DNA from: Methylomarinum sp. Ch1-1
Lineage (GTDB): Bacteria; Pseudomonadota; Gammaproteobacteria; Methylococcales; Methylomonadaceae
Direction: 5' to 3'
DNA: 64,000 bases
Assembly (NCBI RefSeq): GCF_030717995.2
Contig: NZ_CP157743.1
Coordinates: 2,630,501-2,694,500 of the forward strand
Shown piece by piece: positions 3,686 through 16,346 of this stretch (positions are counted from its first letter, which is position 1; the number at the start of each line of letters is the position of its first letter). A program made the translations under genes and the position numbers. The notes beneath the pieces are model-generated. The model was not told the origin of the DNA. It saw only the letters and a program-made list of their open reading frames with translations, and did no database searches.

Positions 3686-3706
3686 TGGTCTTAATGAGAG
3701 GTGTTT

Positions 3707-3982
3707 ATGAAATTATCAGATCAAATCAAGCCTATTAGCTACTTGAAAGCCCATGCCGCTGAAGTCGTGCGTAATCTGTCGACTCAGATGGAGCCCTTGG
3801 TGATTACCCAAAATGGTGAAGCTAAGGCTGTAATGCTGGACATTAAAAGCTACGAGCAAACGCAGGAAACTATGGCGCTTTTGAAGATGCTTGCGCTAGG
3901 TCAGCGCCAGATCGACGAAGGGAAAGTTCAGCCAGCCGCTGATGTTGTTGCCAAGCTGCGTAGTCGGAGCAAAAATCGGTAA
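3707..3982 (+). CDS. Phd/YefM-family antitoxin
   Basis: A 91-residue labile antitoxin and likely operon autorepressor. The N-terminal region (KPISYLKAHAAEVVRNLS, then PLVITQNGEAKAVMLD) is the Phd/YefM DNA-binding fold, and the C-terminal helix would wrap the toxin. The ATG at 3707 was chosen over a GTG at 3701 because AGAGG lies 5 bp before it. The stop overlaps the toxin start by one base (TAATG), which implies translational coupling. This is a small accessory module between repeats and the tmRNA gene, typical of recently acquired DNA. Confidence 0.88.
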   Translation: MKLSDQIKPISYLKAHAAEVVRNLSTQMEPLVITQNGEAKAVMLDIKSYEQTQETMALLKMLALGQRQIDEGKVQPAADVVAKLRSRSKNR

Positions 3983-4308
3983 TGAGTTATCAGGTATTTC
4001 TTACTGACGACGCGGCTTACGATCTTGAGGATTTGTACGACTATATTGAATCCTATGATTCGCTAGAAAAGGCTGACTACGTTCTCGACAAAATAGAAGA
4101 GACATTTTCAAGCCTTGTCGATAATCCAGAGCGCGGTGCTTATCCAAATGAGTTATTAGCTGTTGGCTTGCGCGAATATCGAGAAGTCTATTTCAAGCCC
4201 TACCGTATTATTTATCGGGTTATTGCTCAGCATGTCTATGTTATGGTGATTGCTGATGGTCGTCGTGACATGCAAGCTCTTTTGCAGCGTCGCCTGCTTC
4301 AAGCCTAA
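3982..4308 (+). CDS. RelE/ParE-family toxin
   Basis: A 108-residue partner of the upstream antitoxin. Family features are the N-terminal helical hairpin (DDAAYDLEDLYDYIES), the helix with LVDNPERGAYP, the strand LREYREVYFKPYRIIYRV and the C-terminal VIADGRRDMQALLQRRL. These match the ParE/RelE fold. Whether it cleaves mRNA on the ribosome (RelE) or inhibits gyrase (ParE) cannot be decided from the sequence; the GRRDM segment near the end is common in ParE-like members. No gene follows directly. Confidence 0.87.
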   Translation: MSYQVFLTDDAAYDLEDLYDYIESYDSLEKADYVLDKIEETFSSLVDNPERGAYPNELLAVGLREYREVYFKPYRIIYRVIAQHVYVMVIADGRRDMQALLQRRLLQA

Positions 4309-6930: not shown

Positions 6931-8940
6931 TTGACCGAACCTATCGCCGTCAAAGCCGTTTTAATTTATCCGCGGTTTGATACCTCGGATACCTTTTGGA
7001 GTTACGCCCGAAGTCTGGGTTTATATGCGTCCGGAAATCGCTTCGGTTTGCCGAAAAGACTGTTGCCGCCGCTAGGGCTGTTGGGCCTGTATCGACATCT
7101 GAAACCTTATTATCGGGAAATTGAGCTGATCGACCGAAATGTCGATCCCAGACCATTGGCGGAGCAGATCGGCGATGCCGATCATGTCTATATGGGCGGC
7201 ATGTCTGCGCAGCAACACAGTCTTTATCGCGATGCCGAACAGGTTAGGCAAAGCGGCAAGACCTTGATTGTCGGCGGAACGGCAGTCACCCCGGATTCGC
7301 CGCTGCTCGACGTCGCCGATCATCTGATCGAGAATGAAGCGGAAATGGTCATAGACGATTTATTGCAGGGACTAAGCGATGGCAGCGCACGGCATTACTA
7401 CCGGGGGGCTGTCACGCCGGCCGACCGATTCTTTCAACCGGACTTTTCCGCCATCGATTTGCAAGATTATGCCCACATGGCTTTGCAGATCAGTCGCGGT
7501 TGTCCCGAGTCTTGCGAATTCTGCGATATTCCGTCCCGATTCGGGAAAAATTATCGAGTCACGCCATGGCGGCAGACCGCGGCGGCGTTTCGTCAATTGA
7601 CCGAGCTGGGCTGGTCCGGGCCGGTGTTTATCGTCGACGATAATTTCATCGGCAATCCGCGCAAGGCGCTGGAAGCCCTGCGCCATCTTTATCATATCGG
7701 CGAGGATTTGGGCATACATCACCCCAAATATACCGAAATGACGCTGAGATTCGCCGATGATTCGACGGTGATGCAGGAACTGCGGCATTGGTTCAGGCGC
7801 TGCAATTTCAGTCAGAGCTTCTACGGTGTGGAAACGCCGAACAAGGCTGCGCTCAGGGAAACGGACAAGCAGCAGAATCTGCGCGGCGACAAGGGCCTGG
7901 TGGAAAAACTGGCCTATATCAGCGAACAGACCGGTTCCGGCGTCATGATGGGAATGATCTATGGTTTCGATCATGACAGCGACGATACCGTCGAGCCGTT
8001 CATCGATTTTGTCAACGCCACCCATGCGCCGATTGTCATGGCGGGTTTGTTGAATGCGTTGCCGCGCACCGCTCTGATGGAACGCCTGAAAAAAGAAGGG
8101 CGTTTCATCCAGCACAGCAGCGGCAACAACTCCGATGGTGTGATCAATTTCATTCCGCTGAATTTCTCCATCGAACAGGCGGAACGCAATTATCTTAAGA
8201 TCCTGCAAGCCATTTATCACCCGGACGCCTATTTCAAGCGGGTGATGCGGCACTTGCAGCGCGTCGATCCGCTGCTAAAGGGGGACTTTCGCGATCGCCG
8301 TGAACAGCTGTCGGCCGTCATCAAGATTCTGAGCCGTCAAAACGCCTTGAATTACTGGCGCTACCTGTTCCAGGCGCTGAAAATCGCCGGCCGCCGGTTT
8401 CCGGCGGGCAGTGCGGCCTACACAGCGTTGACGGCCGAATATTTCGCCTTATGCGCGCAATACACTCATTTCATCGGCCAGACCCGGGCCTTGCAGCGGC
8501 AAATCGAGCACAGGCGATACCAAGGCTGGCAGCGCTGTTCCTGGCGACAAGTATTGGCGGCCGAGATTGAAGCGGTCGAATTATTACAGGCCCACCCGGA
8601 TACGCCGCTGCTCGATACGATCCGCCTCGATTTAGCGCTCGATCATTGCTTGACCGGGACGCGGCTCCAGCTGATGGAGTATTACTGCGAGCCGTTGATA
8701 TGGCAGGCGTTTGCCGATGGCGCCGACGCGATGCCGTCAGACCGGCAGTTTGTGGCGCTGCAAATCGAGGCCTTTGCCGCGGTATACCGGCAAAGAACGG
8801 CCATCGCCGGCGGCATCGCTTGGGAAGAGATAGAACGCCATCTTCAGGCCACGCTGGCGCAAAATCACGACTTCGTTCTGCAAATGCGGCGGCGGTTCCG
8901 TAAATTCTTGGCGTTGAAGGCGCTTAGCGATGAGTGCTAA
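6931..8940 (+). CDS. B12-binding-type radical SAM protein (DUF4070-like)
   Basis: 669-residue radical SAM enzyme, first gene of a four-gene operon. Residues 1-150 form a Rossmann-like cobalamin-binding-type domain (PPLGLLGLYRHL, ELIDRNVDP, LIVGGTAVTPDSP), but the classic DxHxxG cobalamin motif is not seen. The cluster Cys191-x3-Cys195-x2-Cys198 sits in SRGCPESCEFCDIPSRFG. The helical C-terminal half resembles the DUF4070 part of hopanoid methylase relatives. The start is TTG with AAGG 9 bp upstream; no earlier in-frame ATG exists. It could be a methylase or another radical-based modifying enzyme; the substrate is unknown. Confidence 0.85.
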   Translation: MTEPIAVKAVLIYPRFDTSDTFWSYARSLGLYASGNRFGLPKRLLPPLGLLGLYRHLKPYYREIELIDRNVDPRPLAEQIGDADHVYMGGMSAQQHSLYRDAEQVRQSGKTLIVGGTAVTPDSPLLDVADHLIENEAEMVIDDLLQGLSDGSARHYYRGAVTPADRFFQPDFSAIDLQDYAHMALQISRGCPESCEFCDIPSRFGKNYRVTPWRQTAAAFRQLTELGWSGPVFIVDDNFIGNPRKALEALRHLYHIGEDLGIHHPKYTEMTLRFADDSTVMQELRHWFRRCNFSQSFYGVETPNKAALRETDKQQNLRGDKGLVEKLAYISEQTGSGVMMGMIYGFDHDSDDTVEPFIDFVNATHAPIVMAGLLNALPRTALMERLKKEGRFIQHSSGNNSDGVINFIPLNFSIEQAERNYLKILQAIYHPDAYFKRVMRHLQRVDPLLKGDFRDRREQLSAVIKILSRQNALNYWRYLFQALKIAGRRFPAGSAAYTALTAEYFALCAQYTHFIGQTRALQRQIEHRRYQGWQRCSWRQVLAAEIEAVELLQAHPDTPLLDTIRLDLALDHCLTGTRLQLMEYYCEPLIWQAFADGADAMPSDRQFVALQIEAFAAVYRQRTAIAGGIAWEEIERHLQATLAQNHDFVLQMRRRFRKFLALKALSDEC

Positions 8941-8976
8941 AGGTTTAGCTCGAATGTCTGCGAGTAGAGGGCGGTG

Positions 8977-10734
8977 ATGAGACGCTATTACATCGGTTTG
9001 TCGGTCACCTATCATGATCCCGCCATGGCCATTGTCGATGAAAAGGGCCGGGTTTTGTTCGCCGAGGCCGGCGAGCGGTATTTGCAGCACAAGCGCGCGT
9101 TGAATTGCGAGGCGGATCCGTTGTTGCGCGTGCCGGAGTTATTGGCCGAGCATTGTCGTTTTCCCTGTCAAATCACGATCGCGATCAACTGGCGCAAACG
9201 TCGGCCCTGGTATGAAAACGTCGTCGCCGCGCTGGGGTGTCTGGATGCGCCGGGCTTGATGAAGCAGGGCATCAAACGTCTGCGCTCGCCTTTGCCCAAT
9301 TATCAGCTGCATCACATGATCGCCTGTCAGCGCAGCAAGATTAAGACGGCCGGTTTGAATCTGGTGCGTATTCTTCGGCAATCTTATCCACAGACGCCGC
9401 TGCGTTTCGCCGACTTTGCCCATCATCTGACCCATGCGGCCTGCGCCTGTTATAGCAGTCCTTTTAGCGAAGCCGCCTGCGCGGTGGTCGATTCGTTTGG
9501 CGAGAACGGATCAATGGCGTTCTATCATTTTCGCAACGGCCGATTGCAACTGATCCATGAAAACCGTGGCGCCGGCAGCATCGGTTTCTATTATATGAAA
9601 ATCACCGAATTATGCGGTTTCGACTGGCTAAAAGGGGAAGAATGGAAGGTCATGGGCTTGGCGCCTTATGGCAAGTTGAACCCGGAACTCTATGAATTGT
9701 TGAAGTCTTTGATCGTGGTCGAGGGACTGAGCTGCAAGCATCCGGGGCGCAGGCTGTTCGAGCGAGTCGACGAGCTGGCGCGTTTCCAGCGGCAAAAAGA
9801 CCAATCGATCGAACAGGCCGCCGATATCGCCTTTACCGGACAGTTTTTTTTCGCCGAACTGGTCGGCCGTTTGTTGGGCAATCTGCAGGACATGACCGGC
9901 TCGAAACAACTGGCGCTGGCCGGCGGCTGCGCGCTGAATTCAGCCTTCAACGGCCAGATCGTCGAGCGCACCGGCTTCGAGCGCGTCCATATTCCATCGG
10001 CGCCGGCCGACGACGGCACAGCATTGGGCGCAGCCTGGTTGGCTTTGCGCCAGGATAATCCGTCTGTCGCGTTGGGCGGCGCCGCCTTGACGCCTTATCT
10101 AGGCTCGACGATTCCCGATGCGGCGCTGCAGCAGTTTAAAAAATATAACCGCAGCCTGAAGGTTCGGCATTTGCCGGATAGTCTTTGTCACACTGTCGCC
10201 CGCTTGCTGACCGATGGCGATTTGATCGCTTGGGTGCAGGGCAGGGCGGAATTCGGGCCGCGCGCCTTGGGCAACCGGTCGATACTGGCCGATCCCAGGC
10301 GGGCCTCGACCAAGGATCGGATCAATGCGACGATCAAGTTCCGCGAACAGTTCAGGCCTTTCGCGCCGGCGTTGCTGGCCGAATGCGCCGAGGATTTTTT
10401 TGACCATAGTCAGAGTTCGCCTTATATGGACAAGACCCTGAGTATTAGGGCCGATAAACGCGACAGCCTGGCCGCTGTTTGCCATGTCGATGGAACCGGA
10501 CGTCTGCAAACGGTCACTAAGGAGTTTAATCCGCGTTTTTATCAATTGATCGTGGAATTTCATCGCTTAACGGAGGTGCCGGCCTTGTTGAACACCAGTT
10601 TCAATGTCATGGGGAAACCGATGGTGCATAGCCTGGAAGATGCGCTTGCGGTGTTTTTGACCAGCGGGCTCGACCATCTGGTGATTAACGATTATCTGAT
10701 TAGCAAGCCGAAGGGTCATGAGTCGAGCCGCTGA
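8977..10734 (+). CDS. NodU/CmcH-family carbamoyltransferase
   Basis: 585-residue enzyme of the family that moves the carbamoyl group of carbamoyl phosphate, via carbamoyl-adenylate, to a hydroxyl. The N-terminal Kae1-like part has FAHHLTHAACA (metal-binding His pair), VDSFGENGS, the glycine-rich GGCALNSAFNG and PADDGTALGAA. The C-terminal YrdC-like part has VQGRAEFGPRALGNRSI and NTSFNVMGKPMV. ATG 8977 was chosen over GTG 8974 because GAGG lies 6 bp before it. Family members act in natural-product tailoring (Nod factor, cephamycin, tobramycin). The end overlaps the next gene by 17 bp. Confidence 0.9.
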   Translation: MRRYYIGLSVTYHDPAMAIVDEKGRVLFAEAGERYLQHKRALNCEADPLLRVPELLAEHCRFPCQITIAINWRKRRPWYENVVAALGCLDAPGLMKQGIKRLRSPLPNYQLHHMIACQRSKIKTAGLNLVRILRQSYPQTPLRFADFAHHLTHAACACYSSPFSEAACAVVDSFGENGSMAFYHFRNGRLQLIHENRGAGSIGFYYMKITELCGFDWLKGEEWKVMGLAPYGKLNPELYELLKSLIVVEGLSCKHPGRRLFERVDELARFQRQKDQSIEQAADIAFTGQFFFAELVGRLLGNLQDMTGSKQLALAGGCALNSAFNGQIVERTGFERVHIPSAPADDGTALGAAWLALRQDNPSVALGGAALTPYLGSTIPDAALQQFKKYNRSLKVRHLPDSLCHTVARLLTDGDLIAWVQGRAEFGPRALGNRSILADPRRASTKDRINATIKFREQFRPFAPALLAECAEDFFDHSQSSPYMDKTLSIRADKRDSLAAVCHVDGTGRLQTVTKEFNPRFYQLIVEFHRLTEVPALLNTSFNVMGKPMVHSLEDALAVFLTSGLDHLVINDYLISKPKGHESSR

Positions 10735-12862
10735 TTTGCCATTTAAACCGTCCTCGGCCACCGGGCAGTCTGTCACGTCTGTGTCGATTGGCGGCAGGGC
10801 GTTGTTTTATCGCTTGTTGCATTTCAACGTCTTTCTCGACAATCAGCAGCTTGCTCAGGCTTTTTTGAACCAAAGCTTAGAACGGGCCGGACGGCATTAT
10901 TACAATCGATACACCGAGCTTGGCGACGACCCCATGGCGTCTTTGACTGTCGAGTCTAATATCGAGCCTATGTCGGTCGGCGAGGCCGGCTTCGTGGAAA
11001 GCTTGAGACAGTCGGCGCCGGTGCTACTGACCGAACCCTGCTGGCTGCAGGATGTTTGTCAGGCGACCAGCAATCAGGAAGTCACGGCCGCCGCGTTGAT
11101 GCGGGTTTATTTGGCCTTGAGCGCGGCCCATTTGGACGATGCTTACCGAGCCTTGCTAGCGCAGTTCGGCCTTGCGTCGCCGCCATTGCATAGCGCCTCT
11201 TATAGCCAGCGTAAAGATTTGTTGAGCGGTTTCATCGATTTCGCGGCGGTACAGCTGGCGCTGGCGGACAATCCTCGGCGCTATGAGGCCGAACTCTTGG
11301 GTTTTACGCTGGCTTATTGCCGCTCATCGACGCCGGTGGAGCAGTATTTTCCGGATCAAACCGGACAAACTGATTTTTTCCGCAGGCGGCGGGCGCTGCT
11401 CGCCTGTCAATCTGAGGGGGTGGCCCGGATGCTCGATGACTGGCTGGCATTGAATGCGGGGCCTAAGGCACAGGCTTGGCAGCGAATCCAGGCCGGTTTC
11501 TGGCTGTATAGGGACTTGGTTGAGCGCTGCCGTAGCCAACTGGGAAGGCATCTGCTGCACCATCCTTCCGCCACCGAGGCGATGCTACAACTGCTGCAAC
11601 GCAAGACGGCCGCCGCCATCGGTCATCACCATCGGGTACAATTACAAGGGCAAAACCTCGATGACTGGTTCAGGGGGCTGCCGGAGACTGGAGGCGAGCT
11701 GTTGACGGCGTTGCGCCGCTCTTCCTATGTCGATGCCGCTGAGCCGCAAAACAGCCGCTTGTTAAAGCTGTTCGAATTCAACGGCCCGATGTTCGGAATT
11801 CTCGACCAACAGGAATTGGCTGTCGTCAAAAACTGGCTGTCGGATCAATCCACGGCGACAGCCGAACCGTTGAACCCGCGCTCCGATCACGAAGACAGAC
11901 CAGTCCGCTTCGTTGTCTCTAAATCTGAAGACTTGGGGCGCTTGTCGAATCGTCAGTTATATTATTATCTGCTCAATGCGGAATATTACCCACAGGTTTT
12001 GCCGCCAGCGGCCGCTAAGGTCAGCCGGCAACTGGCGATTTTCGGCCGGCTCAGTCGCTTGCCTTTTAAACGCTACAGTCATGCTCGATTCGAACGGTAT
12101 TTGCACGCGACTTATCAACACGAAATGGCCGCTTATCGGCCCCTGTCCGGCAAGCCGAATATTTCCCGGGCGGCCTATCGCTGGGGGTTGAAGCAGATCG
12201 CTCCGACGGTATTAATCGATGGTGTCTGGCTGCAGCATTGCAGCCGGCTGCGTTGCAGCCATCCGGAGATCGCAGCGATTTTAACCGGCATTTATGCCGA
12301 TGAGCTGGGTCGCGGACGGTTGCAACAGAGTCACCCGGTCGTTTTCAGCAATCTGTTGGAAGCCTTAGGGATCGATCTGCCGCCTATCGCCAGCAAGGCA
12401 TTTAGTGAACATGAAAATTTCGTCGACAGCGCCTTCGATCTGCCGGTTTTCATGCTGGCGCTGGCCAAGTTTCCGCAGCGTTTTCTGCCCGAGTTGTTGG
12501 GCTTGAACATGGCGATAGAATTGAGCGGGCTGGGGCGGGGCTATCTGTCGCTGATCGATGAACTGAATTACTGGGGCATCGATGCCACGATTGCCCGTTT
12601 GCATGTCACCATCGATAATTTTGCCGATGGCCATGCCGCCCAAGCTAAAGAGGCGATCAAGCTGTATTTGGACGAGGTTCTGGTCGGCCAGGGCGAGCAG
12701 GCCATGCAGCAACACTGGCGTAGAATATTCAGCGGATACGTATCGCTGAATCGAATCTGCTGGCGTTTTAAACTGGCGGTGCCGGCGGTTTATATGTTCA
12801 ATAAGATGACTCGCCGGTCTCTGATATCAGATAACAATAATAAAAAAAACTCCTCGCTATGA
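10718..12862 (+). CDS. Tandem haem-oxygenase-like di-iron oxidase (iron-containing redox enzyme family)
   Basis: 714 residues. The C-terminal domain (about 400-680) carries the ligand pattern of the HDO superfamily: Glu529 in ADELGRGR, His539 in QQSHP, Glu601 in MAIELS, then His629, Asp633 and His639 in LHVTIDNFADGH. Characterised relatives are N-oxygenases, C-C lyases and fatty acid decarboxylases (SznF, BesC, UndA). Residues about 120-220 repeat the same helical pattern (AHLDDAYRALLAQFGL against VVFSNLLEALGI; YEAELLGFTLAYC against FLPELLGLNMAIEL) but lack most ligands, so the N-terminal copy looks structural. The gene overlaps both neighbours, implying coupled translation. Substrate unknown. 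Confidence 0.75.
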   Translation: MSRAADLPFKPSSATGQSVTSVSIGGRALFYRLLHFNVFLDNQQLAQAFLNQSLERAGRHYYNRYTELGDDPMASLTVESNIEPMSVGEAGFVESLRQSAPVLLTEPCWLQDVCQATSNQEVTAAALMRVYLALSAAHLDDAYRALLAQFGLASPPLHSASYSQRKDLLSGFIDFAAVQLALADNPRRYEAELLGFTLAYCRSSTPVEQYFPDQTGQTDFFRRRRALLACQSEGVARMLDDWLALNAGPKAQAWQRIQAGFWLYRDLVERCRSQLGRHLLHHPSATEAMLQLLQRKTAAAIGHHHRVQLQGQNLDDWFRGLPETGGELLTALRRSSYVDAAEPQNSRLLKLFEFNGPMFGILDQQELAVVKNWLSDQSTATAEPLNPRSDHEDRPVRFVVSKSEDLGRLSNRQLYYYLLNAEYYPQVLPPAAAKVSRQLAIFGRLSRLPFKRYSHARFERYLHATYQHEMAAYRPLSGKPNISRAAYRWGLKQIAPTVLIDGVWLQHCSRLRCSHPEIAAILTGIYADELGRGRLQQSHPVVFSNLLEALGIDLPPIASKAFSEHENFVDSAFDLPVFMLALAKFPQRFLPELLGLNMAIELSGLGRGYLSLIDELNYWGIDATIARLHVTIDNFADGHAAQAKEAIKLYLDEVLVGQGEQAMQQHWRRIFSGYVSLNRICWRFKLAVPAVYMFNKMTRRSLISDNNNKKNSSL

Positions 12863-13899
12863 AATATCTGTGCAGTTTTATCTTTCCGCTTTGTGTCTTG
12901 TTGTTTCTTTACAGCGGTCCGCATGGTGTTGCCGCGGCGTTATCGTGGACGCTGCCGTTATGGCTGCTGTGTCTCGCCGACCGTTACAGCCCCAAGCTGA
13001 ATCAGGCCAGCAACCCTCCGCTCAAGCAAACTTTTTGGTTCGATTGGATACTGGTGCTGCTGGCGATGATCCAATTCGTCAATATCTTTTTGTTGTTGCG
13101 TTATGCGGCGCAATTACCATGGTCTAGCCTCAGCGAGACGGCCGTTTCCATCGTCAATTTGATCGTATTGAGGATATTGGTCGGCACCAGTTCCGGCAGC
13201 TCGGCGATCATCGTCGCGCATGAATTGATTCATCGTCGCCAAAAAATATTGAGAGGGCTGGGGCATGGACTGCTTTATACTGTTTGCTACGATCATTTCG
13301 CCATCGCCCATCTGCAAGGTCATCATCAGCAGGTGGCGACGCCCGAGGATATCTCAACGGCTCGTCTCGGCGAAAGTTTCGACAGTTATTGGCAGAGAGT
13401 CGTTAAGGGGCAGTTCCGTTATGCCTGGCGGTATGAGATGGCGCGGCTCGGGATCGTCAGTCAGACCCGATCGATGTTCTTATGGGCGAAAAACCGGGTG
13501 CTGCAAGGCATCGTGATCGAAGCCTGGCTGGTGGTGATGATTATTGTCCAGTTCGGCTGGGTGGCGGCCTTTATTTTTCTCTACCAGGCCTTGGCGGCGG
13601 TGCGTTTGCTGGAAACGATCAATTATTTTCAGCATTGGGGGCTGGCGGACCGGCAAGGCGATGAAGAATTGGCTTGGGTCAACCGCTCGTGGCTGACTCA
13701 GTATGCCTTGGTCGGCTTATCGAAACATATCGGCCATCATCGGCATGCGGGCATGGCCTTCCCGGAAACGCCTTATTTGGAGCAAGGGCCGGTTATGCCT
13801 TACGGCTATTTCGCCACTAATCTTTGGGTGAAATGGCGCAACCGTTCTTACCAAGAAACCTCGGCACGGGTATTGTCGATATATCATCATTTCTGGTAA
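12859..13899 (+). CDS. AlkB-like integral-membrane di-iron monooxygenase
   Basis: 346 residues with several hydrophobic membrane segments. Histidine boxes are HELIHRR (His121), HLQGHHQ (His151), NYFQHWGL and KHIGHHRHA (about 290-298). The segment VATPEDISTARLGES is a close match to the alkane 1-monooxygenase/xylene monooxygenase family, which hydroxylates terminal methyl or fatty chains. The usual EHYG of the third box is QHWG here, and the usual LQRHSDHH is LSKHIGHH, so it is a divergent member. It starts on the ATGA overlap with the preceding oxidase. No rubredoxin gene is adjacent. Confidence 0.85.
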   Translation: MKYLCSFIFPLCVLLFLYSGPHGVAAALSWTLPLWLLCLADRYSPKLNQASNPPLKQTFWFDWILVLLAMIQFVNIFLLLRYAAQLPWSSLSETAVSIVNLIVLRILVGTSSGSSAIIVAHELIHRRQKILRGLGHGLLYTVCYDHFAIAHLQGHHQQVATPEDISTARLGESFDSYWQRVVKGQFRYAWRYEMARLGIVSQTRSMFLWAKNRVLQGIVIEAWLVVMIIVQFGWVAAFIFLYQALAAVRLLETINYFQHWGLADRQGDEELAWVNRSWLTQYALVGLSKHIGHHRHAGMAFPETPYLEQGPVMPYGYFATNLWVKWRNRSYQETSARVLSIYHHFW

Positions 13900-13900
13900 T

Positions 13901-14172
13901 TATTCAGCGTAGTTTTACTAAGAGGGAGTAGGTTGTTGATTTATCGGGCTGTCTGCAACAGGACGTTGCAGTCAGAGCTTACGCCGCACAAGGAAGTGCA
14001 AGTGCCGCGTGAAGCAGGATGCTGTTAGCTGCCAGGGAAGTATTCACCCAGCACCTAAATACCCTAGGTTATTGGCTATGATTAATAATCTTCGTTAATT
14101 TAGGTGCTGGGTGAACGCGTCCCGAGAAATCAATGACCTACTGCCTAAAACCCGAAAGATGCTGAATAGTTA
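13901..14172. mobile_element. MITE-like element, TATTCAGC family, copy 1
   Basis: Ends TATTCAGC and GCTGAATAGTTA are inverted. The interior is non-coding, 272 bp in total, and holds a nested 73-bp palindrome at 14043-14115. The GGACGTTGCAGTCAG interior motif is shared with the copy at 33539-33717. Confidence 0.75.
14043..14115. repeat. 73-bp palindromic element, copy B
   Basis: Same 18-bp inverted ends and total length as copy A at 3442-3514. It is inserted within the TATTCAGC element. Confidence 0.9.
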
Positions 14173-14332
14173 CCATTTCTGAACCTTTTTAGTGCTCGAT
14201 TGCCTTAAGTTGCACTTAATTGGGGCATTAGGAGGCCATTCAAGGGGTAATGGGCGCTATCCGCGTGGCTTAGTATTTGCTTTCACGGCTTGATAAGTCT
14301 TTAAAACTATTCGTAAAAAGAAGGAGCGAGGT

Positions 14333-15631
14333 ATGACCGAGCACACTACAGCCACTTTGTCTTTGACCGGTAATGAAATTCCCGCTGAATTGCCGGTATT
14401 GTCCGGTACAATGGGCCCCGATGTGATCGACATCAGAGCCTTGCATAAGAAAACCGGAGCGTTCACTTACGACCCTGGGTTCACTTCAACCGCCAGTTGC
14501 AGTTCTAAAATCACCTTCATAGACGGCGATAAAGGGATATTATTGTACCGTGGCTACCCGATCGAGCAAGTGGCGGAAAAATGCGACTTTCTCGAAGCCT
14601 GTTATTTGTTGTTAAACGGGGAGTTGCCCGATGGCCGGGAGATGAAGGAATTTGTCAATTCGATTACTCAGCATACCTTGGTGCATGAACAATTAACCCA
14701 TTTTTTTAATGGTTTCCGCCGAGACGCCCATCCGATGGCGATATTAGTCGGTGTGATCGGCGCGATGTCGGCCTTTTATCATGAATCGATGGATGTCAAG
14801 GACGAAGAGTTTCGCAAATTGTCGGCGATACGGCTGATTGCGAAAATGCCGACCATCGTTGCGATGTGTCACAAATACAGCACCGGTTTACCGTTCATGT
14901 TTCCGAAAAACAGTCTGGGGTATAGCGAAAATTTCATGCGTATGTTGCATGGCACGCCGTGTGACGAATATTTGCCGAATCCGGTTTTGACCCGGGCGTT
15001 GGACAGAATTTTGATTTTGCATGCCGATCATGAACAGAATGCTTCGACCTCGACGGTCAGGCTGGCCGGCTCCAGCGGCGCCAACCCCTATGCCTGTGTC
15101 GCGGCCGGCATCGCCTGTTTATGGGGGGCGGCGCATGGCGGCGCCAATGAGGCGGTATTGTTGATGTTGGAGGAGATCGGCGATGTTTCGCGCATCGATC
15201 AATATATAAAAAGAGCCAAAGACAAGGAAGATTCGTTTAAACTAATGGGGTTCGGGCATCGGGTGTATAAAAATTTCGACCCGAGGGCGATCTTGATGCG
15301 GCAAACTTGTCATGAGGTTTTGAATGAGTTGGGGTTGCATGACGACAAGTTATTCAAACTGGCGATGCAATTGGAAAAGATTGCGTTGGAGGATGAATAC
15401 TTCATTGCCAAGAAGCTTTATCCGAATGTCGATTTTTATTCCGGCATCGTCTTGCGCGCGCTCGGGATTCCTACCGACTTGTTTACCGCGATCTTCGCGA
15501 TGGCCAGGACCGTCGGCTGGATCGCACAATGGGATGAGATGATCACCGATAGCGAACAAAAAATAGGACGTCCAAGACAACTCTATAAAGGCGCGGCGAA
15601 GCGGGATGTCGTGCCGATAGCCAACAGATAA
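14333..15631 (+). CDS. gltA: Citrate synthase (type II)
   Basis: Condenses acetyl-CoA and oxaloacetate to citrate, entering the TCA cycle. 432 residues, the size of the hexameric NADH-sensitive type. Catalytic residues are His268 in [10 protein letters not shown], His309 in [14 protein letters not shown] and Asp367 in NVDFYSG. The ribosome-binding site AGGAGCGAGG precedes the ATG. The MITE-like element at 13901-14172 lies in its upstream region, so it may affect expression. dnaQ begins only 4 bp after the stop, so the two are probably co-transcribed. Confidence 0.97.
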
Positions 15632-15635
15632 GCAC

Positions 15636-16346
15636 ATGAAAAAAATAAACAGACAGGTGGTTCTCGACACCGAGACCACCGGCCTTAATCCGAAAGAAGG
15701 TCACAGGATTATTGAAATCGGCTGTGTCGAATTGATCAATCGGCGGTTAACCAACAACCGTTTCCATGTCTATATCAACCCCGATCGCATCATCGATGAC
15801 GGCGCGATTGAAGTGCATGGCATCACCAACGAATTCTTACAGGACAAACCGCGCTTCGCCGATATCGTCGAAGATTATCTCGAATTTACCCGTGGCGCCG
15901 AGTTGGTCATCCATAATGCGCCGTTCGATGTCGGTTTTCTCGATCATGAATTGTCCTTGTTGGAAGGCGAGGAGCGTCGGACCGAAATGCTCAGTGGTGT
16001 TTTCGATACGCTGACTTACGCCCGAAAAAAACATCCGGGCGCCAGAAACACCTTGGATGCCTTGTGTAAGCGTTACGGCATCGATAATAGCCATCGCGAA
16101 TTGCACGGCGCCCTGTTGGATGCCGAGATTCTGGCCGATGTTTATTTGCTGATGACCGGCGGACAGGCGTCTTTATTGGAAGAGGAAGAGACAAATGATA
16201 CAGAGGGCGGACAGCAGATCATTCGGCTGTCGACGGACAGGCCTAGACTGAAAGTCATACGCTGTTCCGATGACGAGCTGAGCGCCCATGAAAAACACCT
16301 GCAACATCTGCAGGACGCCAATGGCGCCTGCATGTGGCTGAAATAG
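15636..16346 (+). CDS. dnaQ: DNA polymerase III epsilon subunit (3'-5' proofreading exonuclease)
   Basis: 236 residues, DEDDh exonuclease. Exo I is VLDTETTGL (Asp11, Glu13), Exo II is HNAPFDVGFLDHEL, and Exo III is HGALLDAEILADVY. After the catalytic domain, GGQASLLEEE resembles the beta-clamp-binding segment, and the remaining C-terminal tail would bind the alpha subunit. In E. coli dnaQ lies next to rnhA; here it directly follows gltA with a 4-bp gap, an uncommon partnership, and rnhA is absent. Confidence 0.96.
   Translation: MKKINRQVVLDTETTGLNPKEGHRIIEIGCVELINRRLTNNRFHVYINPDRIIDDGAIEVHGITNEFLQDKPRFADIVEDYLEFTRGAELVIHNAPFDVGFLDHELSLLEGEERRTEMLSGVFDTLTYARKKHPGARNTLDALCKRYGIDNSHRELHGALLDAEILADVYLLMTGGQASLLEEEETNDTEGGQQIIRLSTDRPRLKVIRCSDDELSAHEKHLQHLQDANGACMWLK

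Follow-up and report, generated by a model that had tools for sequence, protein, structure and literature searches.

A candidate tailoring module of carbamoyltransferase, doubled diiron oxidase and AlkB-like hydroxylase in gammaproteobacterial methanotrophs

A constant set of three linked genes

The stretch of DNA analysed here (64,000 nucleotides of the Methylomarinum sp. Ch1-1 genome, contig NZ_CP157743.1, positions 2,630,501 to 2,694,500; hereafter 'the window') contains consecutive genes for a radical S-adenosylmethionine (SAM) protein (gene 1), an O-carbamoyltransferase (gene 2), a doubled heme-oxygenase-like diiron oxidase (HDO, gene 3) and an AlkB-like membrane non-heme diiron hydroxylase (gene 4), which an earlier note on the sequence had taken as one four-gene set. 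In the order to which this genome belongs, the Methylococcales, the constant set is the carbamoyltransferase, the doubled HDO and the AlkB-like hydroxylase, and gene 1 is an accessory. We read the three core genes, tentatively and with somewhat less than even confidence, as a tailoring module of gammaproteobacterial methanotrophs that would carry out a hydroxylation, an O-carbamoylation and then an oxidation.

All four open reading frames (ORFs) are intact and lie on the + strand of the window: gene 1 at 6931-8940 (669 amino acids, TTG start), gene 2 at 8974-10734 (586 amino acids, GTG start, or ATG at 8977), gene 3 at 10718-12862 (714 amino acids) and gene 4 at 12859-13899 (346 amino acids). 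These coordinates agree with the earlier description of same-strand genes with overlaps between genes 2 and 3 (17 bp) and genes 3 and 4 (4 bp); the 36 bp then given between genes 1 and 2 is the distance to the ATG at 8977, the gap to the GTG being 33 bp. The family assignments made for the four genes were likewise borne out by Pfam, structure and profile matches.

Of 61 sampled genomes of the order, 36 contain the HDO, 35 the carbamoyltransferase (E <= 1e-120), 35 the AlkB-like gene (E <= 1e-50) and 34 all three, and at these cut-offs, which were set after the lists had been seen, none of the 61 carried the carbamoyltransferase or the AlkB-like gene without the HDO. Outside this count stand AlkB-like matches in genomes G042 and G053 (1e-23 and 4e-21; G, L and f numbers denote our genomes, loci and families), a fragment in G023 (3e-16), where both HDO and AlkB-like gene are fragments only, and distant carbamoyltransferases at 1e-60 to 1e-93. 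Six of the eight sampled families of the order carry the module; families f7 and f8 (seven genomes) lack the HDO, though six of these genomes have matches to the methane monooxygenase-type subunit A family PF02461.

Genes 2-4 are neighbours in 31 of 35 loci from the order (34 genomes besides the window's), which is linkage far beyond chance. One of the 31 (L040) has its AlkB-like gene about 4 kb off and another (L047) a partial carbamoyltransferase match; the four exceptions have no carbamoyltransferase nearby (L022, L029), no AlkB-like gene (L041) or neither (L042). Of 81 loci, 54 (the window and 53 of the 80 others) served to assess layout and residue conservation, loci with truncated, split, multiple or missing copies being dropped. 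In all 54, each with one full-length copy of both genes, the HDO directly follows the carbamoyltransferase, the two ORFs overlapping or at most 16 bp apart, and the AlkB-like gene is either downstream (33/54) or divergent (21/54). Pairwise divergences of the three core proteins correlate (r 0.935-0.941, with none of 500 permutations as high), a correlation to which shared ancestry contributes. The linkage that the earlier note expected among relatives held for genes 2-4, and through the change of layout, but not for gene 1, as described further below.

A doubled oxidase with one degenerate half

Pfam places Haem_oxygenas_2 (PF14518, E 1e-19) in residues 489-671 only of the HDO, and comparison of the protein with itself confirms the doubling that had been proposed from the sequence: the profile of residues 86-375 (10973-11842, + strand) matches that of residues 404-714 (11927-12859, + strand) with an hhalign probability of 99.9 (E 1e-30). 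An AlphaFold2 model built from an alignment of 48 sequences (the window and 47 of 62 HDO ORFs; later alignments took 32 and 28 of the 48) has a mean predicted local distance difference test score (pLDDT) of 91.3. Eight residues of the second half, D501, E529, H539, E592, E601, H629, D633 and H639, are conserved in 48/48 HDOs, and in another set, of 54 sequences, seven are invariant and E529 is kept in 53/54 (D in L109). At the sequence level they amount to three histidine and five carboxylate ligand candidates, which would satisfy either a three-histidine/three-carboxylate (3H/3C) or a 3H/4C set. Among the predicted ligand positions of the first half, only E192, the counterpart of E592, is conserved, so that this half appears degenerate, its metal ligands lost, and the second is the predicted catalytic half. 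Duplication of an HDO with one half dead is a variant absent from the available portion of a 2026 review of the HDOs (PMC13108848).

Carbamoyltransferase and AlkB-like hydroxylase

Gene 2 has both carbamoyltransferase domains over their cut-offs (Carbam_trans N, PF02543, 105 bits; C, PF16861, 232 bits), in common with novobiocin carbamoyltransferase, GdmN, TobZ and NodU, and against solved enzymes it matches decarbamoylnovobiocin carbamoyltransferase at E 4e-77 and also GdmN and TobZ. Enzymes of the NodU/TobZ type carbamoylate hydroxyls from carbamoyl phosphate. We take HHxxHA and associated aspartates to be their metal-site positions; gene 2 has HHLTHA at residues 150-155, and H150, H151, H154, D173, D346 and D347 are kept in 54/54 sequences. 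It scores far below the NCBIfam NodU cut-off (168 versus 1000 bits), and from all of these enzymes it differs in its genomic partners.

Gene 4 belongs to the FA_desaturase family of Pfam, with histidine boxes HELIH (121), HLQGHH (151), NYFQH (255) and HIGHH (290), and ten of its histidines are invariant in 54/54. Its solved-structure matches are two alkane 1-monooxygenases only (E 3e-29 for 8f6t, and 2e-20), and with AlkB alkane monooxygenase it shares the family, the histidine boxes and the ATPED and GES stretches. Gene 4 is, however, shorter, and reads NYFQHWG where AlkB has NYIEHYG; because it departs in this way from NYxEHYG, which we take to be the AlkB signature, we call it AlkB-like rather than AlkB. 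Enzymes of the AlkB-like kind act at the membrane, where they hydroxylate unactivated C-H bonds.

Distribution beyond the order

A pattern scan with the HDO profile covered representatives of 84,980 species, with E-values computed for candidates only and the best 80 of 81 relatives kept. Among these 80 listed loci, 67 bear Methylococcales-type or methanotroph-symbiont labels and five are labelled as unspecified Gammaproteobacteria, and Methylococcus capsulatus Texas (L091) is one of the carriers; the other eight labels are three Myxococcales metagenome-assembled genomes (MAGs), Nocardia yamanashiensis, Halopolyspora, Rugamonas rubra, a 'Chromatiales' MAG of upland soil cluster gamma (USCγ) and a 'Methyloversatilis' MAG. 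The label of the last, Methyloversatilis universalis (L119), is probably wrong; its locus closely resembles that of Methylocaldum, with a TonB receptor 91% identical, and a squalene-hopene cyclase is present. The Myxococcales MAGs (L118, 5644-11767; L122, 8761-15232; L125, 8719-15294) have a doubled HDO with an asparagine-synthase-like protein, a 301-amino-acid protein (no Pfam match in L118) and a further conserved ORF.

Both among the 80 listed loci and in a class-wide sample of 274 genomes, the module was rarely found outside the order: at E <= 1e-120 the carbamoyltransferase occurred in four of the 274, namely the window's genome (G000, 4.77 Mb), one more genome of the order and two of the USCγ family f36. 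Both f36 genomes carry the carbamoyltransferase, the HDO, PF02461 and a squalene-hopene cyclase, and the window's genome has a PF02461 match (E 7e-128) and a squalene-hopene cyclase as well. Together with the labels of the listed loci, these genes make the host very likely a Type I methanotroph. The carbamoyltransferase-HDO pair seems to be the oldest part of the module. Methane monooxygenase by itself was rejected as a predictor of it, as only five of 18 PF02461-positive genomes carry carbamoyltransferase and HDO and 13 do not (G070 by carbamoyltransferase search only). The PF02461 search also took in 11 genomes from neither the order nor f36, of which one, G070, gave a weaker match.

Novelty lies not in the enzyme families, which are known, but in how they are combined, in an HDO that is doubled yet has one half dead, and in a distribution tied to methanotrophs. 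The earlier note knew of no described pathway with this set, and our search of the open-licence literature in PubMed Central (PMC), with closed papers and preprints outside its scope, found no description of the gene set and no AlkB-like/carbamoyltransferase/HDO route to an alkyl N-hydroxycarbamate. The Pbo cluster of P. syringae was rejected as a match, its gene set being different as far as the available text goes, and the term carbamoyl is absent from the accessible portion of a survey of methanotroph secondary metabolites (PMC11964084). The carbamidocyclophane cluster of Nostoc has a hydrophobic product and an assigned carbamoyltransferase, whose activity was then unproven, but it is based on a polyketide synthase (PKS), has a putative halogenase and, in the part of the report at hand, no HDO or AlkB-like enzyme is named (PMC4728517). 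The module brings together, in an ordered arrangement, a few enzymes of demanding chemistry, and it is present in free-living and symbiotic lineages and, in its carbamoyltransferase-HDO part, also in soil USCγ.

Proposed chemistry and its alternatives

In the pathway that we tentatively favour, the AlkB-like membrane enzyme would hydroxylate an unactivated C-H bond of a hydrophobic substrate, the carbamoyltransferase would, as its family suggests, transfer a carbamoyl group from carbamoyl phosphate onto the new alcohol to give R-O-CO-NH2, and the HDO, with its second half as the diiron site and its first as a scaffold, would oxidize the product. This last oxidation would most simply fall on the new carbamate nitrogen, giving an N-hydroxycarbamate, a hydroxamate-like metal ligand. 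A DUF4070-type radical SAM enzyme may add a further step in some genomes, probably a C-methylation. Hydroxylation is the least certain step, because in USCγ the AlkB-like gene is missing although carbamoyltransferase and HDO are present; there another enzyme, or a substrate already hydroxylated, would replace it. We infer the reactions and their order from gene content, linkage, co-occurrence, conserved catalytic residues, the degenerate HDO half and an N-oxygenase-like fold, all of which are observed.

That the HDO acts on nitrogen is hinted at by its structural neighbours. In VIA-align comparisons the second half is closest to RohS (Z 22.8, 267 residues, 4.0 A), HrmI (22.7, 276 residues, 3.7 A) and SznF (22.2, 272 residues, 5.2 A), followed by an unassigned P. 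aeruginosa protein (18.9), FlcD (18.4, 266 residues, 3.7 A), CADD (15.6, 199 residues, 3.4 A), BesC (13.9, 201 residues, 3.5 A) and UndA (13.8, 211 residues, 3.8 A). HDOs nearest to gene 3 oxygenate nitrogen. With RohS, SznF and HrmI the second half has the heme-oxygenase-like fold in common at Z 22-23, and DE-x-G-x-G-x5-H is shared with RohS, DE-x-G-x-G plus a histidine with SznF; gene 3 differs from all three in its 714 amino acids, in the extra ligand-poor half in front and in its linked carbamoyltransferase and AlkB-like gene. In a profile search, SznF E189, E215 and H225, presumably metal ligands with E189 as the fourth carboxylate, align with D501, E529 and H539; the 3H/4C minority of HDOs was first recognized in SznF, an N-oxygenase, according to the part of the HDO review available (PMC13108848). 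Together, the predicted fold ranking and the candidate counterpart of SznF E189 hint that the HDO may oxygenate a nitrogen of its substrate.

A number of observations weigh against this scheme, some of them concerning the HDO and others the constancy of the module. Z favours longer chains, and the gap in Z between the RohS group and the small enzymes is partly one of size; Foldseek found nothing below E 0.001 for the HDO model (best E 0.005), and the sequence matches between the HDO and SznF or RohS are weak (E 0.02-0.2), the full-length HDO profile reaching no better than E 0.034, to RohS, against solved structures. The spacing of the last ligands, H629-D633-H639, differs from that of SznF, whose motif we take to be H-x3-D-x2-H. 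The ligand count cannot settle the reaction, because HrmI, an N-oxygenase too, is 3H/3C (PMC13108848). As to constancy, neither of the USCγ-family genomes nor Rugamonas has an AlkB-like match at E <= 1e-10, and we rejected the gene as a part of every version of the module. In USCγ locus L103 (9004-12157, genome G088) the HDO directly precedes the carbamoyltransferase, the reverse of the usual order, and is a 460-amino-acid ORF matching from residue 272 on, without most of the first half; in the USCγ-family genome G233 the genes are apart, the HDO locus (L100, from genome G332, whose cyclase matches are identical to those of G233) lacking a carbamoyltransferase. Around the HDO relatives of myxobacteria and actinobacteria there is no close carbamoyltransferase. 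Within the order, too, some genomes have the genes scattered: G004 and G034 have no carbamoyltransferase near the HDO, G004 has none anywhere in the genome at 1e-60, Methylotetracoccus (G339) has carbamoyltransferase and AlkB-like gene side by side with the HDO on another contig, and Methylolobus (G340) has the HDO with neither partner.

The earlier note envisaged an oxidized, carbamoylated, lipid-like product. A lipid substrate is plausible, given the AlkB-like membrane enzyme and a distant gene cluster of Rugamonas (L127, 52-12678) in which a carbamoyltransferase (46% identical) and HDO (27%) accompany a fatty acyl-AMP ligase-like protein, a KAS III-like protein and two FA_desaturase proteins, and which looks, by its gene content, like an uncharacterised lipid pathway; the hopanoid that the note named as one possible substrate is not specifically supported. 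The same cluster also holds a short ValRS-like protein and a hydrolase. The fullest version of our scheme, in which AlkB-like enzyme, carbamoyltransferase and HDO N-oxygenation yield a conserved alkyl N-hydroxycarbamate, or a further oxidized form, that serves as a membrane-linked hydroxamate-like metal ligand or signal, we consider decidedly unlikely as a whole. Were the product a lipid, it would be a possible biomarker of methane oxidation; were it a chelator, it could bear on the supply of copper or lanthanides for that process.

One alternative is hopanoid tailoring, in which the module would make carbamoyl- or methylcarbamate-type bacteriohopanepolyols (BHPs); O-(N-methylcarbamoyl)-BHP, one such product, would be isomeric with methylcarbamate-aminoBHP, itself a tentative assignment. 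Such compounds are known with no gene assigned, as far as the accessible parts of the reports go (PMC12583986, PMC5100885, PMC11844350): C-35 carbamoyl-BHPs occur in alphaproteobacteria, where the surroundings of the hpn cluster offered no obvious new candidate genes (PMC12583986), and methylcarbamate-BHPs in all Type I methanotrophs tested, including Methylomonas methanica (PMC5100885). Squalene-hopene cyclase is found in 36/36 HDO carriers and in both USCγ-family genomes, and all seven cyclase-less genomes lack the HDO (P 0.001 if the genomes, which are related, are treated as independent). But 18 of the 25 HDO-less genomes also have the cyclase, and although every Type I strain tested had methylcarbamate-BHPs, the best 80 of 81 loci include none from a Methylomonas isolate. 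A link between hpnR and the module was rejected, hpnR being over its cut-off in 7/36 HDO carriers and 2/18 other cyclase carriers. The neighbour count shows no linkage to a further family (the flanks were not annotated hpn gene by gene), and Nocardia and Rugamonas, both distant, have a doubled-HDO relative but no cyclase match. Because the cyclase is so common in genomes without the HDO and hpnR does not track the module, we keep hopanoid tailoring as an unlikely rival rather than as the leading interpretation.

We are similarly doubtful of an UndA-like role, in which the HDO would act on a fatty acyl chain by lyase or desaturase chemistry and, with the AlkB-like enzyme, produce an alkene or diol for carbamoylation, leaving nitrogen unoxidized. 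UndA itself is a fatty-acid HDO in the available text of the review (PMC13108848), and the AlkB-like enzyme and the Rugamonas fatty acyl-AMP ligase-like protein point to alkyl chains; UndA and BesC, however, rank under RohS, HrmI and SznF, partly through the length effect, and the extra invariant carboxylate aligns with SznF E189.

We give equally little credence to a secreted product, for which the module would supply the core modifications of a small soluble metallophore or signal instead of those of a membrane lipid. An N-oxygenated carbamate would chelate metals, and in Methylocaldum L099 (1003-15635) and its near relative L119 (941-14345) the module sits with an amino-acid-type adenylation ligase, a carrier protein and a TonB-dependent receptor, as well as a P450, a luciferase-like monooxygenase and acetyltransferases. 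The receptor, however, when searched for in 115 loci and the window by a comparison that could miss unrelated receptors, was found only in L099, L119 and, as a weak match, myxobacterial L125, and no transporter family occurs in more than eight of 81 loci. Because L099 and L119 add such genes, the hydroxylation-carbamoylation-oxidation module that we favour can be built into larger pathways.

The accessory radical SAM gene

Gene 1 narrowly misses the Pfam cut-off for Radical_SAM (28.2 versus 29.5 bits) and matches DUF4070 at 77.8 bits (residues 380-526); the cysteines of its CxxxCxxC motif (residues 191-198), C191, C195 and C198, are invariant in 7/7 gene 1 sequences. Motif and C-terminal domain are shared with DUF4070 radical SAM enzymes such as HpnP, which we take to be the hopanoid C-2 methylase, but no NCBIfam model is over its cut-off (HpnR, for example, scores 21 against 650 bits). 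The N-terminal part has no Pfam B12-binding match and no DxHxxG motif; B12/SAM NCBIfam models match gene 1 weakly, spanning part of this region.

A fixed four-gene unit, as first proposed, was rejected. Nine of the 61 genomes have a gene 1 orthologue, never more than 1.4 kb from the carbamoyltransferase; five others have relatives at 1e-56 to 1e-69, which were not counted as orthologues. In G034 gene 1 and the carbamoyltransferase form a pair on one contig, with the HDO and AlkB-like gene on a different one. In the sister genome G001 (L013, C1:673000-692000; 12187-15794) gene 1 is split by a 456-amino-acid ORF that by eye looks like an insertion sequence transposase, while the core genes are intact.

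Two genomes of family f2 have a separate radical SAM gene (29-30% identical to gene 1) beside a carbamoyltransferase (47-48% to gene 2), in G044 at L134 (8224-11781), without HDO or AlkB-like neighbours, and in G037 at L136 (3850-5430) with C88:2011-3735, on a contig of 5.6 kb. Elsewhere in G044 (L135, contig C79, 5584-12373), a tandem pair of radical SAM genes, relatives of gene 1 (31-32%), comes after ORFs that by eye are pmoC-, pmoA- and pmoB-like.

Neighbouring genes

Neighbouring families were counted in 81 loci from longest-start ORFs, as used also for the 54-locus comparison and the HDO alignments, which in some GC-rich loci are in the wrong frame (e.g. the L112 carbamoyltransferase), making the count an undercount. 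Gene 1 recurs in 11 of these loci and every other family in at most eight, none of them naming a substrate. In the window, no PKS, non-ribosomal peptide synthetase or ribosomally synthesized and post-translationally modified peptide genes adjoin the module, as the earlier note had stated. Upstream of gene 1 is a 188-amino-acid protein with no Pfam match, and a citrate synthase follows 433 bp downstream of gene 4.

About 4 kb upstream of gene 1 lies a fabA-fabB pair for unsaturated fatty acid synthesis (1129-2877); in the module neighbourhoods of other loci, fabB has just 29-30% matches, in L044 and L111. The window also encodes a Phd-type antitoxin followed by a RelE/StbE-like toxin (3701-4308), the toxin scoring under the NCBIfam cut-off. 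Finally, a family that by eye resembles pyrroloquinoline quinone (PQQ) methanol dehydrogenase is found near the module in L100 (4550-6400), L103 (4841-6673) and L080 (1-1470).

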